Assembly: GCA_008501765.1 (NCBI GenBank)
Contig: QQUE01000002.1
Location: 1,114,336-1,178,335 of the forward strand
From: Calditrichota bacterium
GTDB taxonomy: Bacteria > Zhuqueibacterota > Zhuqueibacteria > Zhuqueibacterales > Geothermadaptataceae
Direction: 5' to 3'
DNA: 64,000 bases
The notes beneath the pieces are model-generated. The model made no database searches, had not been told where the DNA came from, and worked only from the letters and a program-made list of their open reading frames with translations. The position numbers were made by a program, and so were the translations under genes. Below, piece after piece: positions 33,196 through 64,000 of the stretch (its first letter is position 1; each line of letters begins with the position of its first letter).

Positions 33196-34194
33196 ATGAG
33201 TGCAGAGAAAAGCAGTATTGGAATTGCCGTGTTGGGTTTTGGAACGGTTGGACAAGGCGTTGCGGAAATATTTCAGATTAAAAAAGCAGAGTTGGAAAAA
33301 TGCTGTGCAAAAAAATTGAATATCATTGGGGTCGCCTTACGCGACCGGCATAAACCACGGGCGATTTCAATGCCTGAAAACTTGATCACAACGAATCCAC
33401 TCGCGTTGGTCGAGCAGGAAAATGTGGATATTGTTCTGGAATTGATGGGTGGCGTTGCAACCGCCCGGCAATGCATTTTACGCGCTTTGGATCTGGGAAA
33501 ACCGGTGGTCACAGCCAACAAGGCTTTGCTGGCCGAATGCGGTGAAGAAATTTTTACAACTGCGAAAAAAAATGGGCAGCCGCTGGGCTACGAAGCATCT
33601 GTGGCTGCAGGGCTACCGATAATAAAAATTCTCCGTGATGGACTGGCCAGCACAGAAATATCGGAAATTTCAGGGATTCTCAATGGAACAACAAATTTCA
33701 TCCTGTCGCAGATGCAGGAAAAAGGGCAGAGTTATGAAGAAGCATTTACCACGGCGGACGAACTCGGCTATCTGGAAGCCGATCCTGCACTGGATGTCGA
33801 TGGCTGGGACGCGGCCCACAAACTCGTCATTCTGTCCTCGATTGCCTTCAAAAGATATGTAAGTTTGAACGAAATTGAACGCGAAGGCATTGCGAAAATT
33901 ACCCCTGAAAATCTTGCGCAAGCCAAAAATGAGGGAAAGACGATAAAACTCGTTGCTTCGCTTCGAAAAGAAAAGGGCGAATTCAAGCTTCGTGTTCGCC
34001 CGGAAGCGTTGGATAAAAGTCATCCGTTGGCGAATGTTGGGGGTGGCCTGAGCGGCGTAGTCGTGCGCGGCGATTTCATCGGTGAAGCGTTTTTTCTCGG
34101 ACCCGGTGCTGGTGCGCTGCCAACGGCTTCGGCAGTTGTCTCCGATTTAATTGCAATTCTTCGGGATGCAGAGCGTTCGGGTTTTGGGTTCTAA
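33196..34194 (+). CDS. hom: Homoserine dehydrogenase, short form without ACT domain
   Basis: 332 residues. The NAD(P)-binding GFGTVGQGVAEIF opens the protein, followed by VVTANKALLA and the substrate and catalytic region GILNGTTNFILSQM and DELGYLEADPALDVDGWDAAHK, where the family's catalytic Lys and acidic residues lie. It reduces aspartate semialdehyde to homoserine for threonine and methionine synthesis. The regulatory ACT domain of longer enzymes is missing, so feedback control may be different. The TAA stop codon lies inside the 6-bp target duplication of an inserted 163-bp element. Confidence 0.97.
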   Translation: MSAEKSSIGIAVLGFGTVGQGVAEIFQIKKAELEKCCAKKLNIIGVALRDRHKPRAISMPENLITTNPLALVEQENVDIVLELMGGVATARQCILRALDLGKPVVTANKALLAECGEEIFTTAKKNGQPLGYEASVAAGLPIIKILRDGLASTEISEISGILNGTTNFILSQMQEKGQSYEEAFTTADELGYLEADPALDVDGWDAAHKLVILSSIAFKRYVSLNEIEREGIAKITPENLAQAKNEGKTIKLVASLRKEKGEFKLRVRPEALDKSHPLANVGGGLSGVVVRGDFIGEAFFLGPGAGALPTASAVVSDLIAILRDAERSGFGF

Positions 34195-34197
34195 GTA

Positions 34198-34360
34198 GCG
34201 CGAGTTCGATATAAGACGAGTTGGAACAAAACGAATTAATTATAGGATATAGTCCGAAGGCGTCCCGCCGAGGATAACGCACGAAACGCTCGGCGAGACG
34301 CCTTCACTCTATTATAATTATGCTTGGTAAAGAATGTTACAGCTTACATCGAACCCACGT
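34198..34360 (+). mobile_element. 163-bp MITE-like element A, copy 1 (after hom)
   Basis: Imperfect terminal inverted repeats, GCGCGAGTTCGATATAAG at the left and the complement of ACGTGGGTTCGATGTAAG at the right, bound a 163-bp non-coding unit. It is flanked by direct repeats TAAGTA at 34192-34197 and 34361-34366. The left one contains the hom stop codon. The centre is a 16-bp hairpin with one mismatch (34257-34272 with 34289-34304), starting AAGGCGTC. A second copy, also 163 bp and highly similar, lies in reverse orientation at 61132-61294. No transposase is encoded, so movement would need one in trans. Confidence 0.85.
34257..34304. terminator. Strong hairpin within element A, copy 1
   Basis: Arms 34257-34272 and 34289-34304 form a 16-bp GC-rich stem with one mismatch and a 16-base loop. 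It lies 60 bases beyond the hom stop and ahead of a convergent lipoprotein gene, so it may end both transcripts. There is only a weak T-rich stretch after it. Confidence 0.45.
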
Positions 34361-34377
34361 TAAGTAGCACTTCTCAA

Positions 34378-60849: not shown

Positions 60850-60890
60850 GTACACTATTCCAATTTGCCTGTTTAAAACATGAAACCTAT

Positions 60891-61032
60891 CCTGAATTAT
60901 TCATAAAGCGCAGTGGATGTGCCTGGCACTTAGTTGATTTTTATAAATTTAACTAAGCAAAGTAACTTTTAAGTGTTTTTGTAACTTGTAGAAGTGCCAG
61001 GCACATTTTTACCAGTTTATGAATAATTCAGG
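60891..61032 (+). mobile_element. MITE-like element B, intact copy
   Basis: A 142-bp unit with perfect 17-base terminal inverted repeats CCTGAATTATTCATAAA, flanked by the direct repeat CTAT (60887-60890 and 61033-61036). Internal arms GTGCCTGGCACTT (60919-60931) and AAGTGCCAGGCAC (60992-61004) form a second inverted pair. It is the same family as the interrupted copy at 39628-39994. Nothing is encoded. Confidence 0.8.
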
Positions 61033-61131
61033 CTATAAAAAGTTTCGTTCTTCAAGTCAGATCGCCGGAAAATATATTTATTACGAAAAAACACCCCGTG
61101 CGGAGGCACAGAATACGCAAATTTTTATTTA

Positions 61132-61294
61132 ACGTGAGTTCGATGTAAGCTGTAACATTCTTTACCAAGCATAATTAAAATAGAGCGGAGGCGTCTCGCC
61201 GAGCGTTTCGTGGGTTATCCTCGGCGGGACGCCTTCGGACTATTTCCTATAAGTAATTCGTTTTGTCCCAATTCTTCTTATATCGAACTCACGT
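61132..61294 (-). mobile_element. 163-bp MITE-like element A, copy 2 (after gatD)
   Basis: Ends ACGTGAGTTCGATGTAAG and the complement of ACGTGAGTTCGATATAAG bound 163 bp, with direct repeats TATTTA at 61126-61131 and 61295-61300. Read on the minus strand the target is TAAATA, and the gatD stop codon is formed by its first two used bases plus the element's first base. The central hairpin is the same as in copy 1. Orientation relative to gatD equals that of copy 1 relative to hom. Confidence 0.85.
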
Positions 61295-62679
61295 TATTTA
61301 TGAAATTTTTTCAAGAACTCTTCCACCTCCGGAATTCCGCCCTGATAGACGAGATATCCATTGTAGGGTTCACCATCGGTAATTTCGTGACTGACAGGCG
61401 TGAGCATGAGTTCTCTCACTTTTTCGAGATCATTTGTTTGACCGAGCGCCCAGCCCAATTTTATATACGCGACTTCCGGCAACATATTTTCTGCTGGAAT
61501 TACGCCCTTTGCTACCATATCGCGCCCGGTTTCGTAGACGAACATATGCACAAATCCCCATAAAGTTTGCACGGTCATATAAATGGCTACACCGGCTTTC
61601 GTCGCCCGCTCAATGGCCGGATAAACGGGTTTGTTCATGTGTCCGAGCCCGGTTCCAGCAATGACAATGCCCTTGTAGCCATTGTCCACCATCGAGTCGA
61701 TGATATCCGGATGCATATTCGGATAGTAGTAAAGCAGGGCGACGCGTTCTTCAAATTTTGCAATAATTTTTACGTTGCGGTCGTTGCGCCGCCGGGCGAA
61801 GGTGCTGTGCAAGTGTGTAATTTTTCCCCGTTCGACCATCGCCAGCGGAATATCGCCAATGGTGCGGAAAGTTGACCGGTAAGATGAATGCATTTTTCGC
61901 ACCCGGGTTCCGCGATGCAACAAGCCGTATTCGTCCGAGGTTGGGCCGAACATGCAAACCATCACTTCGGCGATTTCAGATTCGGCGGCAGTGTAAGTGG
62001 CATGAATTAAATTGAGCGCAGCGTCGGAAGAAGGGCGGTCGGATGAGCGCTGCGAACCGACCATCACGATTGGCACCGGGGGATTCTGCACCATAAAAGA
62101 AAGAGCCGCAGCAGTGTGGTGCATCGTGTCCGTGCCGTGCCCGATAACGATGCCGTCGATGCCATTTTTTATCTCTTTTTCGATCGCTTTGGCCAAGGTG
62201 ATGTATTGCTTTGGCCCCATATTTTCACTAAAAACTGCGAACAGTTTGTCGGTGGATAAATTGCAAATATCAGCCAGTTCCGGCACAGCACCGTAAAGTT
62301 CCCCTGGCGAAAATGCCGGAATGACAGCTCCGGTGCGGTAGTCCAGCCGTGAGGCAATGGTTCCACCTGTTCCCAATAATTTGATGTTGGGCCGGTCAGG
62401 CGAGGTGGGGAATTCTTTTTCCGGAATTTTATAGTGGGCTTCTTTGTACCCGTGTTCTTTCATGTCTTCGATTGAATCGATGGCGATGCCGACATTGTAT
62501 CCCGTGGCGAGTTTTAAAACTATGTGGTTGGCATCATCATTTTCCGAGCGTGGTAAAATAATGCCCTTGAACTCACCGCGGCTCGTGCTCACGTGGGCTT
62601 CGCTCCAGACTCGGATTTTATATTTTTTTAAGGCCGCTAAAGCCCCACCTTTGTAACCTTTAAAAATATCTGCCATCAT
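61294..62679 (-). CDS. gatD: Glu-tRNA(Gln) amidotransferase subunit D (GatD, archaeal type)
   Basis: 461 residues from the first of two adjacent ATG codons, which overlaps the gatE stop as ATGA; the longer frame upstream is inside gatE. An N-terminal small beta domain (1-85; KIRVWSEAHVSTSRGEFKGII) is typical of GatD, followed by an L-asparaginase-like domain. Motifs: LLGTGGTIASRLDYRTGAV, SENMGPKQYITLA, VIGHGTDTMHHTAAALSFM and VGSQRSSDRPSSDAA. The first Thr of GTGGTIAS and the HGTDT pair are the catalytic threonines and aspartate. It releases ammonia from Gln or Asn for GatE. The two genes form a standard gatED pair, but in reverse of many archaea. A 163-bp element sits at its stop codon. Confidence 0.95.
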   Translation of the reverse strand: MMADIFKGYKGGALAALKKYKIRVWSEAHVSTSRGEFKGIILPRSENDDANHIVLKLATGYNVGIAIDSIEDMKEHGYKEAHYKIPEKEFPTSPDRPNIKLLGTGGTIASRLDYRTGAVIPAFSPGELYGAVPELADICNLSTDKLFAVFSENMGPKQYITLAKAIEKEIKNGIDGIVIGHGTDTMHHTAAALSFMVQNPPVPIVMVGSQRSSDRPSSDAALNLIHATYTAAESEIAEVMVCMFGPTSDEYGLLHRGTRVRKMHSSYRSTFRTIGDIPLAMVERGKITHLHSTFARRRNDRNVKIIAKFEERVALLYYYPNMHPDIIDSMVDNGYKGIVIAGTGLGHMNKPVYPAIERATKAGVAIYMTVQTLWGFVHMFVYETGRDMVAKGVIPAENMLPEVAYIKLGWALGQTNDLEKVRELMLTPVSHEITDGEPYNGYLVYQGGIPEVEEFLKKFHK

Positions 62680-64000
62680 TCGCCTCCATCCAGTTTTGTC
62701 CACAATCTTTTCAGTTCCATATTTCCGATAGCGCGGGGACGCAGACGGCCCATAATCCAGGCATTTTGGGCGCCATGATTTTTTCTGCAAATATCTTCAA
62801 ATTTTTCTTTGAGATCTGGAATTGAGGCTAATATCTCATCTTCGGTCAGTTTCTTAAAATCAATAGTCGTGAGAACGGACTCAAAATCCATGTTCGGATA
62901 TTGATAAATGATGGGTAACATTTTTTTTGCGATATCCGGCTGCAGGTTTTCTTTCTCTAAAAAGGAAAAAAGCTGGTAAAGACGTTCGTATTCGAAAATG
63001 GAAGACGGGGTAATCCGGCCTTCGATGTTTTTCAGATTGTGGCCAAATAATGTGCCGACAAATGCCGGGTGTAGTTTGAAATCTTTAATGATTTTTTTTA
63101 CCAGCGGGAACAGATTTTTTTTCAGAATGAAGGCAAAAACATCATCTGGAAATTTCCATTTTCGCATTTGTTTTAAATTTTCGGAAACATCTGCGGGCAT
63201 TTTTTTTTGTAATCTGATGATCGATTCTTCGGCGATGGGCAGCGGCGCCGAATCGGTATCAGGGTACATGCGATCGGGCCCGGGCAGAACCCGTTCGAAA
63301 ATTGTTGTTCCGTCGGGCAAGGATTTTCGTGTTTCATTGGGGACACCTGCAAAAGCGAGGTGGCAGCGTTCTGCTATCGTTTCCAACGCCATTTTCATAT
63401 CTTCATACGGCCCCCAAATTAACAATTGCACGTCATTCTCGCGGCTTTCGAGTTTCTGACGCACAACCGACCAATCGATTCCAGAATTTGACTCCTCTGA
63501 GAATCTTAAATTGGGTTTTTCCAGGCAGGCAATGACTTTGAGCCGGTCGCTGATTTCATCAGCAAAACATTTTCCCGGCTGGGTGAAAAAAGACAGAATT
63601 TCTTTGAAATCAGGCAGGTTGACACCAATTAACGCATATTTATTTTTACGGATATCCTTTTGCGGAATTGTATCATTGGAAAATTTGCGCTCGGAAATAG
63701 CCGTGTGGGAAATCTCCCATTTTTTTTCATCCAATTTTTTATTTGCAAGTATCTGTTTTATCTCCAGCAATGCTTTTTGCCGAAATGCTTCGTTGTGCGT
63801 GAGTTGCGGGATCCAGCTAATATGTGCCACACCTTTTATCTCAACGCGGGTGCCACCGGAAATGCTGACATTCACATCTTGCCGCGCGGCGCCAATTCCT
63901 GTTCTAACTTTCCCCGTGCTGCGCGCCAAAAATCGCAGATAGTGACCTGCTTCCGCTGCTTCTTCCGGTGTGAGCATCTCCGGATAAGTCACCATCTCAA
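62676..64000 (-). CDS. gatE: Glu-tRNA(Gln) amidotransferase subunit E (GatE), N-terminus beyond window
   Basis: The frame is open to the right edge, so roughly the first 190 residues are missing; 441 codons are visible. The first visible residues EMVTYPEMLTPEEA correspond to the GatB/GatE region EIVTxPD. The central part (TGKVRTGIGAARQDVNVSIS, GGTRVEIKGVAHISWIP) is the kinase-type fold used to phosphorylate Glu-tRNA(Gln). An AspRS-like insertion lies in the middle (SFFTQPGKCFADEISDRL, PDRMYPDTDSAPLP) and distinguishes GatE from GatB. The C-terminal helical tail follows. It partners GatD and makes Gln-tRNA(Gln) by amidation. The stop overlaps the gatD start by 4 bp. Confidence 0.94.
   Translation of the reverse strand, partial: EMVTYPEMLTPEEAAEAGHYLRFLARSTGKVRTGIGAARQDVNVSISGGTRVEIKGVAHISWIPQLTHNEAFRQKALLEIKQILANKKLDEKKWEISHTAISERKFSNDTIPQKDIRKNKYALIGVNLPDFKEILSFFTQPGKCFADEISDRLKVIACLEKPNLRFSEESNSGIDWSVVRQKLESRENDVQLLIWGPYEDMKMALETIAERCHLAFAGVPNETRKSLPDGTTIFERVLPGPDRMYPDTDSAPLPIAEESIIRLQKKMPADVSENLKQMRKWKFPDDVFAFILKKNLFPLVKKIIKDFKLHPAFVGTLFGHNLKNIEGRITPSSIFEYERLYQLFSFLEKENLQPDIAKKMLPIIYQYPNMDFESVLTTIDFKKLTEDEILASIPDLKEKFEDICRKNHGAQNAWIMGRLRPRAIGNMELKRLWTKLDGGE

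Follow-up and report, generated by a model that had tools for sequence, protein, structure and literature searches.

A 163-bp IS982-type MITE between genes and at gene ends in a Calditrichota genome, and the REP-like hairpin at its centre

The question raised by this locus is whether a small mobile element can choose stop codons. The window, a 64-kb stretch of DNA analysed as a whole, comes from a Calditrichota genome of 5.9 Mb and contains two copies of a 163-bp repeat, one after a hom-like and one after a gatD-like gene, exactly where the original prediction had placed them (Table 1). The two gene names come from the sequences and from that prediction rather than from a family search. Copy 1 and the reverse complement of copy 2 are 92.6% identical over 163 bp, with no gap. 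The description of the repeat as non-coding and built of inverted repeats is borne out: neither window copy contains an ORF of 80 aa or more, and the element consists of terminal inverted repeats of ~18 bp around a central hairpin of 24 bp. Both flanking 6-bp duplications are perfect, the TATTTA of copy 2 reading TAAATA in the sense of gatD. As had also been claimed, the TAA stop of each gene lies within or across the duplicated site. That of hom is entirely within its duplication, and that of gatD (61294-61296, minus strand) spans the junction, being made of a TA that belongs to the duplication and the element's first A.

Table 1. Coordinates of the two MITE copies, their parts and the adjoining genes in the window
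Feature	Position	Strand	Remarks
hom-like gene (homoserine dehydrogenase)	33196..34194	+	stop within target word; named from sequence
Left target duplication of copy 1, TAAGTA	34192..34197	+	holds hom stop TAA (34192-34194)
MITE copy 1	34198..34360	+	163 bp, IS982-type termini
Left terminal inverted repeat of copy 1	34198..34215	+	consensus ACGTGAGTTCGATATAAG
Core hairpin of copy 1, left arm	34250..34272	+	element positions 53-75, TAGTCCGAAGGCGTCCCGCCGAG
Core hairpin of copy 1, right arm	34289..34313	+	element positions 92-116
Right terminal inverted repeat of copy 1	34343..34360	-	consensus ACGTGAGTTCGATGTAAG read inwards; in copy 1 ACGTGGG...
Right target duplication of copy 1, TAAGTA	34361..34366	+	
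Left target duplication of copy 2, TATTTA	61126..61131	+	
MITE copy 2	61132..61294	-	163 bp, orientation opposite to copy 1
gatD-like gene (asparaginase-type amidotransferase subunit)	61294..62790	-	ends at insertion; named from sequence
Right target duplication of copy 2, TATTTA	61295..61300	+	with element base 61294 forms gatD stop TAA

A second inverted-repeat element is found in the window at 60888-61035, with outer arms at 60888-60907 and 61016-61035 (TATCCTGAATTATTCATAAA) and nested arms at 60917-60931 and 60992-61006 (ATGTGCCTGGCACTT). Similar words occur again in two other stretches of the genome (L047, beside a truncated MITE, and L163), and the element likely represents a second small repeat family.

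Copy number, target word and stop codons

A genome search for the 163-bp unit and a list of its flanking words, with their placement relative to stops, had been proposed as checks, and both were carried out. One search of the genome scored 40 near-identical, near-full-length copies, and the pattern of the right end of the element was found at 105 places, corresponding to about 105 copies. The stretches around 100 of these places and a few others yielded 99 full copies with flanks. The idea that two unrelated, non-mobile repeats came to lie at stops by coincidence is refuted by a family of about 105 copies bearing exact target duplications, and it retains practically no probability. Relatives of ~195-200 bp that share the terminal repeat of the MITE were also seen (L159:3724-3918, L160:3893-4093 and L162:4184-4379). 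At least the one in L160 has another centre, without the core hairpin, and all three are probably older or sister MITE subfamilies.

Exact duplications of 6 bp flank 39 of the 99 copies and those of 7 bp another 28; three copies have one of a different length, and the 29 copies with no exact duplication reflect decay or rearrangement. The commonest duplicated words are TATTTA/TAAATA (20), TAATTTA/TAAATTA (12) and TAATTA (9). An initial T and a final A are shared by 64 of the 67 exact 6- or 7-bp words, and 53 are bounded by TA on both sides; in composition the word is palindromic. The target is an AT-rich palindromic word, TA-N2-TA or TA-N3-TA, giving a duplication of 6 or 7 bp. Since the word ends in TA at both sides, the length of the duplication tracks the spacing of the two TA steps. 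TAARTA, the target first proposed from the window pair, fits just 23 of the 67 exact duplications on either strand and has to give way to this broader word.

A preference of the element for its target can therefore be upheld for the TA-N2/3-TA word, but not for stop codons, which 82 of the 99 insertions do not overlap. In all, 80 insertions lie between genes and 17 overlap a stop, with 2 others touching coding sequence. The window pair, with both copies on stops against 17% genome-wide, is thus unrepresentative. The original prediction had named random flanking 6-mers, or insertions mostly far from stops, as outcomes that would speak against target preference; many insertions do lie hundreds of bases from a stop, yet the 6-mers are not random.

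For this classification and for the expected frequency of stop overlap, genes were called at the empty sites with a simple home-made codon-usage caller (74% coding density), which misses genes, so that some "intergenic" sites of the null are in fact missed genes. Overlap with a stop was seen in 14 of 68 cases against 3.65 expected from the same words elsewhere, in 22% against 6% for well-called gaps of up to 1200 bp, and in 34% against 12% for those of up to 400 bp, an overall excess of 2.5-4 times the motif-matched expectation that may be inflated because the null includes missed genes. Counted per available target word, coding sequence had 2 insertions for ~1,130 words and the stop 13 for 47. 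Downstream of the stop, the first 120 nt had 34 insertions for 303 words, the interval of 120-240 nt 11 for 220, and the region beyond 240 nt 29 for 1,183. Sites within 150 nt of a start were depleted (31% against 71%, gaps of up to 400 bp). The stop itself exceeded the next 120 nt downstream 2.5-fold (p ~0.013).

These excesses are what would be expected if the transposase, or a factor that it follows, truly targeted stop codons or sites of translation termination. We nevertheless consider such targeting improbable. Most insertions are off stops, the word is defined by TA at both ends whether a stop is present or absent, and IS982 elements elsewhere share the same target words; in addition, the excess shades into the downstream region, and the null is weakened by the missed genes. 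An AT-rich target combined with survival fits the gradient across genes, stops, downstream regions and starts better than stop recognition does: insertions in genes and promoters are lost, and the survivors are therefore found between genes, downstream of them or on a stop. The 2.5-fold excess over the adjacent 120 nt points to a small extra preference, for which survival does not fully account and which the genes missed in the null may inflate. The claim that the element can settle harmlessly at gene ends was sound. Reading inwards from either end, each of the three frames meets a stop within 17 nt: at the junction (TA|A), at nt 4 (TGA) or at nt 15 (TAA). What appeared to be a stop-codon-targeting element is accounted for by a simple target word plus survival.

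Kinship with IS982

The 163-bp repeat is very probably a non-autonomous MITE of the IS982 family, with IS982-like ends, no gene and a TA-N2/3-TA target, whose spread would be driven by a transposase and filtered by survival. Its terminal repeat (ACGTGAGTTCGAT...) is IS982-like, and IMG/VR was searched with ACGTGAGTTCGAYRTAAG as the query. In one IMG/VR contig (L178), an element bounded by the MITE terminal repeat, with three mismatches at one end, encodes an IS982-family transposase of 309 aa (246 bits to NCBIfam IS982, 229 bits to PF13612); its flanking words, TATTTA and TAAATA, are not a direct repeat. Three more IS982 elements (L266-L268) have homologous termini and duplications of TGATTA, TATTTA and TAATTA. 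At L178/L265 and L266-L268, 18-bp ends homologous to those of the MITE thus surround IS982-type transposases, and in a genome belonging to the same class an IS982 remnant terminates in ACGTGAGTTCGACGTAAG. The MITE shares with the family its homologous termini starting with AC and its target duplications (TATTTA, TAATTA and others, 6-7 bp in the MITE versus 6 bp in the IS982 elements), and it is short and transposase-less.

A search of the window's genome with PF13612, the IS982 transposase, gave no match, and no full-length IS with MITE ends was found in the stretches of it that were examined, where distant pairs of ends were neighbouring or interrupted MITEs. The family therefore looks orphaned in this genome, and how it was mobilised is inferred from its relatives. 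Such a MITE commonly shares its genome with a parent IS982, but this is not obligatory, and orphan MITEs exist. The DDE_Tnp_1 family was rejected as a parent: the only match to it in the genome is an IS5-like IS with unrelated ends (CTAAGAGCCTATCCGAAAACCTC; L163:1417-2347). A large orphan MITE family of Calditrichota is now tied to IS982 transposases.

Ends of the ACGTGAGTTCG type were also seen in four viral contigs of IMG/VR (L171, L173, L179 and L180), some as short inverted pairs, and ATTA or TTTA flanks occur at such ends in several viral contigs. This suggests a wide distribution of IS982-type MITEs among phages or prophages.

In the sequence of events that we propose, the MITE would have been cut at the AC of either end by an IS982 transposase that can no longer be detected in this genome. 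The enzyme would then have joined it to the target at two TA steps, one on each strand, with a spacing of 6 or 7 bases. Words of the TA-N2/3-TA kind would abound near TAA stops and in AT-rich DNA between genes. Insertions disrupting a gene or a promoter would have been lost, leaving survivors that are intergenic, downstream of a gene or on its stop. At a stop, the duplication (TAA...TA or ..TA|A) would leave the reading frame with its proper end, and the termini of the element would add stops in all three frames. The central hairpin would be a separately conserved REP-like module, present also in other Calditrichota MITEs with unrelated ends.

The core hairpin and its carriers

The similarity of relatives to the element falls mainly in its central positions 53-116. 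In one genome of the same genus (G002), the core sits in the same IS982-type shell with diverged spacers. In two genomes from another family of the class (G031 and G037), the ends around it are GTAGAGGCTGTCCAAAAAG or GGGCTGTCCAAAAAGC, which match at 19/19 and 16/16 positions; several loci are of this kind. A second genome of the genus (G001) has it between CTGTTTAGCCT ends at three loci, which have the same ends and are each individually weak, and at a single G031 locus (L229) it lies between TAGTGATGGACCGAAAA and TAGTGATTGACCGAAAA (16/17). Judged from these sequences, the core has at least two secure unrelated shells, a third that is likely and a fourth seen in one copy. Cores with no recognised shell were found in G001 (L202 and L203) and in an Ignavibacteriae genome (L245 and L249). 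Exact matches to core words in Paenibacillus, Rhodoblastus, Belnapia and Methylorubrum were rejected as chance, all four having no second arm. In G002, one stretch (L239; G002:C753:4047-5915) holds six core units, mostly arranged in tandem with a spacing of 176 bp, and two others (L241 and L238) hold tandemly repeated half-cores such as GTGTGTTACGCTCAGCGGGACGCTTTCGCTCT, in the manner of the REP singlets of BIMEs.

Across 20 cores compared, the primary sequence of the arms (TCCGAAGGCGTCYCGCCGAG...CTCGGCGRGACGCCTTCG) is retained, and the loops vary in length and sequence. With so little change in the primary sequence, covariation is essentially nil (term 0.14). The same constraint is seen within the window's genome, where 83 gap-free copies were compared with their consensus. 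The two arms differ from it at 0.7% and 0.6% of sites, compared with 4.4-4.5% for the spacers, 3.9-5.8% for the ends and 3.5% for the loop. This makes the arms 7-fold less variable than the rest of the element, with a sharp drop at the arm borders. Rare changes, which would mostly be later than insertion, number 23 in the arms, where the rate of the spacers predicts 59 (p ~1e-7). As the copies were picked by their right end, independently of the core, the choice of copies does not account for this conservation. Gene conversion homogenising the centre of the element may be a source of the low variation, given that the loop is poor in rare changes as well (9). The conservation of the core suggests a function, which could be that of a recognition site for a protein or transposase, or of a hairpin acting as RNA or DNA.

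One such role would be that of a bidirectional terminator, or of a stabiliser of mRNA 3' ends, for which the element is kept at gene ends. Its enrichment downstream of genes and between convergent genes, the conservation of the arms in dispersed copies and a folding z-score of -4.7 are consistent with this role. We regard it as quite unlikely, however, since an intrinsic terminator scan of the element (loops of 3-8 only) made no call and no T-tract follows the arms, orientation relative to the upstream gene is unbiased (31 vs 25), many copies are far from gene ends, and it is the primary sequence, not pairing alone, that is conserved. An Rfam covariance-model search gave no match up to E=1.

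A somewhat better candidate is a REPIN, a REP doublet spread by a RAYT Y1 transposase, with the IS982-type ends added later. REPINs have two conserved inverted arms and a variable loop (PMC3116915), and the core shares both this organization and their pattern of conservation. The repeated half-units and tandem arrays of G002, and the free-standing cores of G001 and the Ignavibacteriae genome, could be read in the same way. On the other hand, none of the four Y1 transposase loci of the window's genome, nor any of six in relatives, is flanked by a core, the nearest case being one half-arm with four mismatches in L169, and a RAYT was accordingly rejected as the origin of the core. Cores are present in G001, yet no Y1 gene was detected in that genome. 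There is also no unpaired GTAG or CGTC end tag, the arm starting with TAGTCCGAAGGCG. A REPIN origin is therefore rather unlikely, and we call the core REP-like without filing it as a REPIN.

Our own reading, which we put forward tentatively, is that the hairpin core could be an independent module with a sequence-specific function, captured repeatedly by MITEs with unrelated ends and kept unchanged by selection in every one of ~100 dispersed copies of this genome, so that it is the hairpin that would be spreading, with the transposon ends as interchangeable carriers. As an IS982-type MITE, the element is of an ordinary kind with a clear target word, and its stop-codon pattern is mostly the product of that word and of survival. 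The less expected finding, and the one worth following, is a hairpin that outdoes the ends of its carrier transposon in conservation and is common to unrelated MITE shells. With the same core in different carriers, their comparison makes the purpose of selection on REP-like hairpins, an old question, testable.

Comparison with known systems

Members of the IS982 family have conserved 5'-AC ends and target duplications of variable length, 7 bp in IS1187 (PMC7335449). The MITE resembles IS1187 of Bacteroides fragilis and the elements of L178 and L266-L268 in its AC-starting, ACGTGAGTTCG-like termini, and those of L266-L268 also in having TA-rich 6-bp target duplications. It differs from them in size and content, the ISs being ~1 kb long with a transposase and the MITE 163 bp without a transposase gene. 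An IS982-derived MITE is already known in Cardinium, where MITECca01 is likewise short, gene-less and multi-copy, with IS982-type inverted repeats (PMC9769881). However, MITECca01 is ~240 bp long and is found beside its intact parent ISCca4 (PMC9769881), whereas no IS982 transposase was detected in the genome studied here. The MITE described here is further set apart by its centre, a REP-like hairpin conserved across shells.

The core itself is closest to REPINs and REP doublets, which are also extragenic and high in copy number, with conserved inverted arms and a variable loop (PMC3116915). In contrast to these, it borders no RAYT gene inspected, has no GTAG or CGTC tag, and is enclosed in the ends of a DDE transposon. 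REP dimers within longer palindromic tracts have been described, namely GTAG-15 in A. variabilis and CGTC-1 in H. neapolitanus (PMC3733652). In these, as in the present element, a REP-like dimer is regularly found inside a palindromic shell; each REP family there has one kind of tract (PMC3733652), whereas the core reported here lies within several unrelated MITE ends in different genomes.
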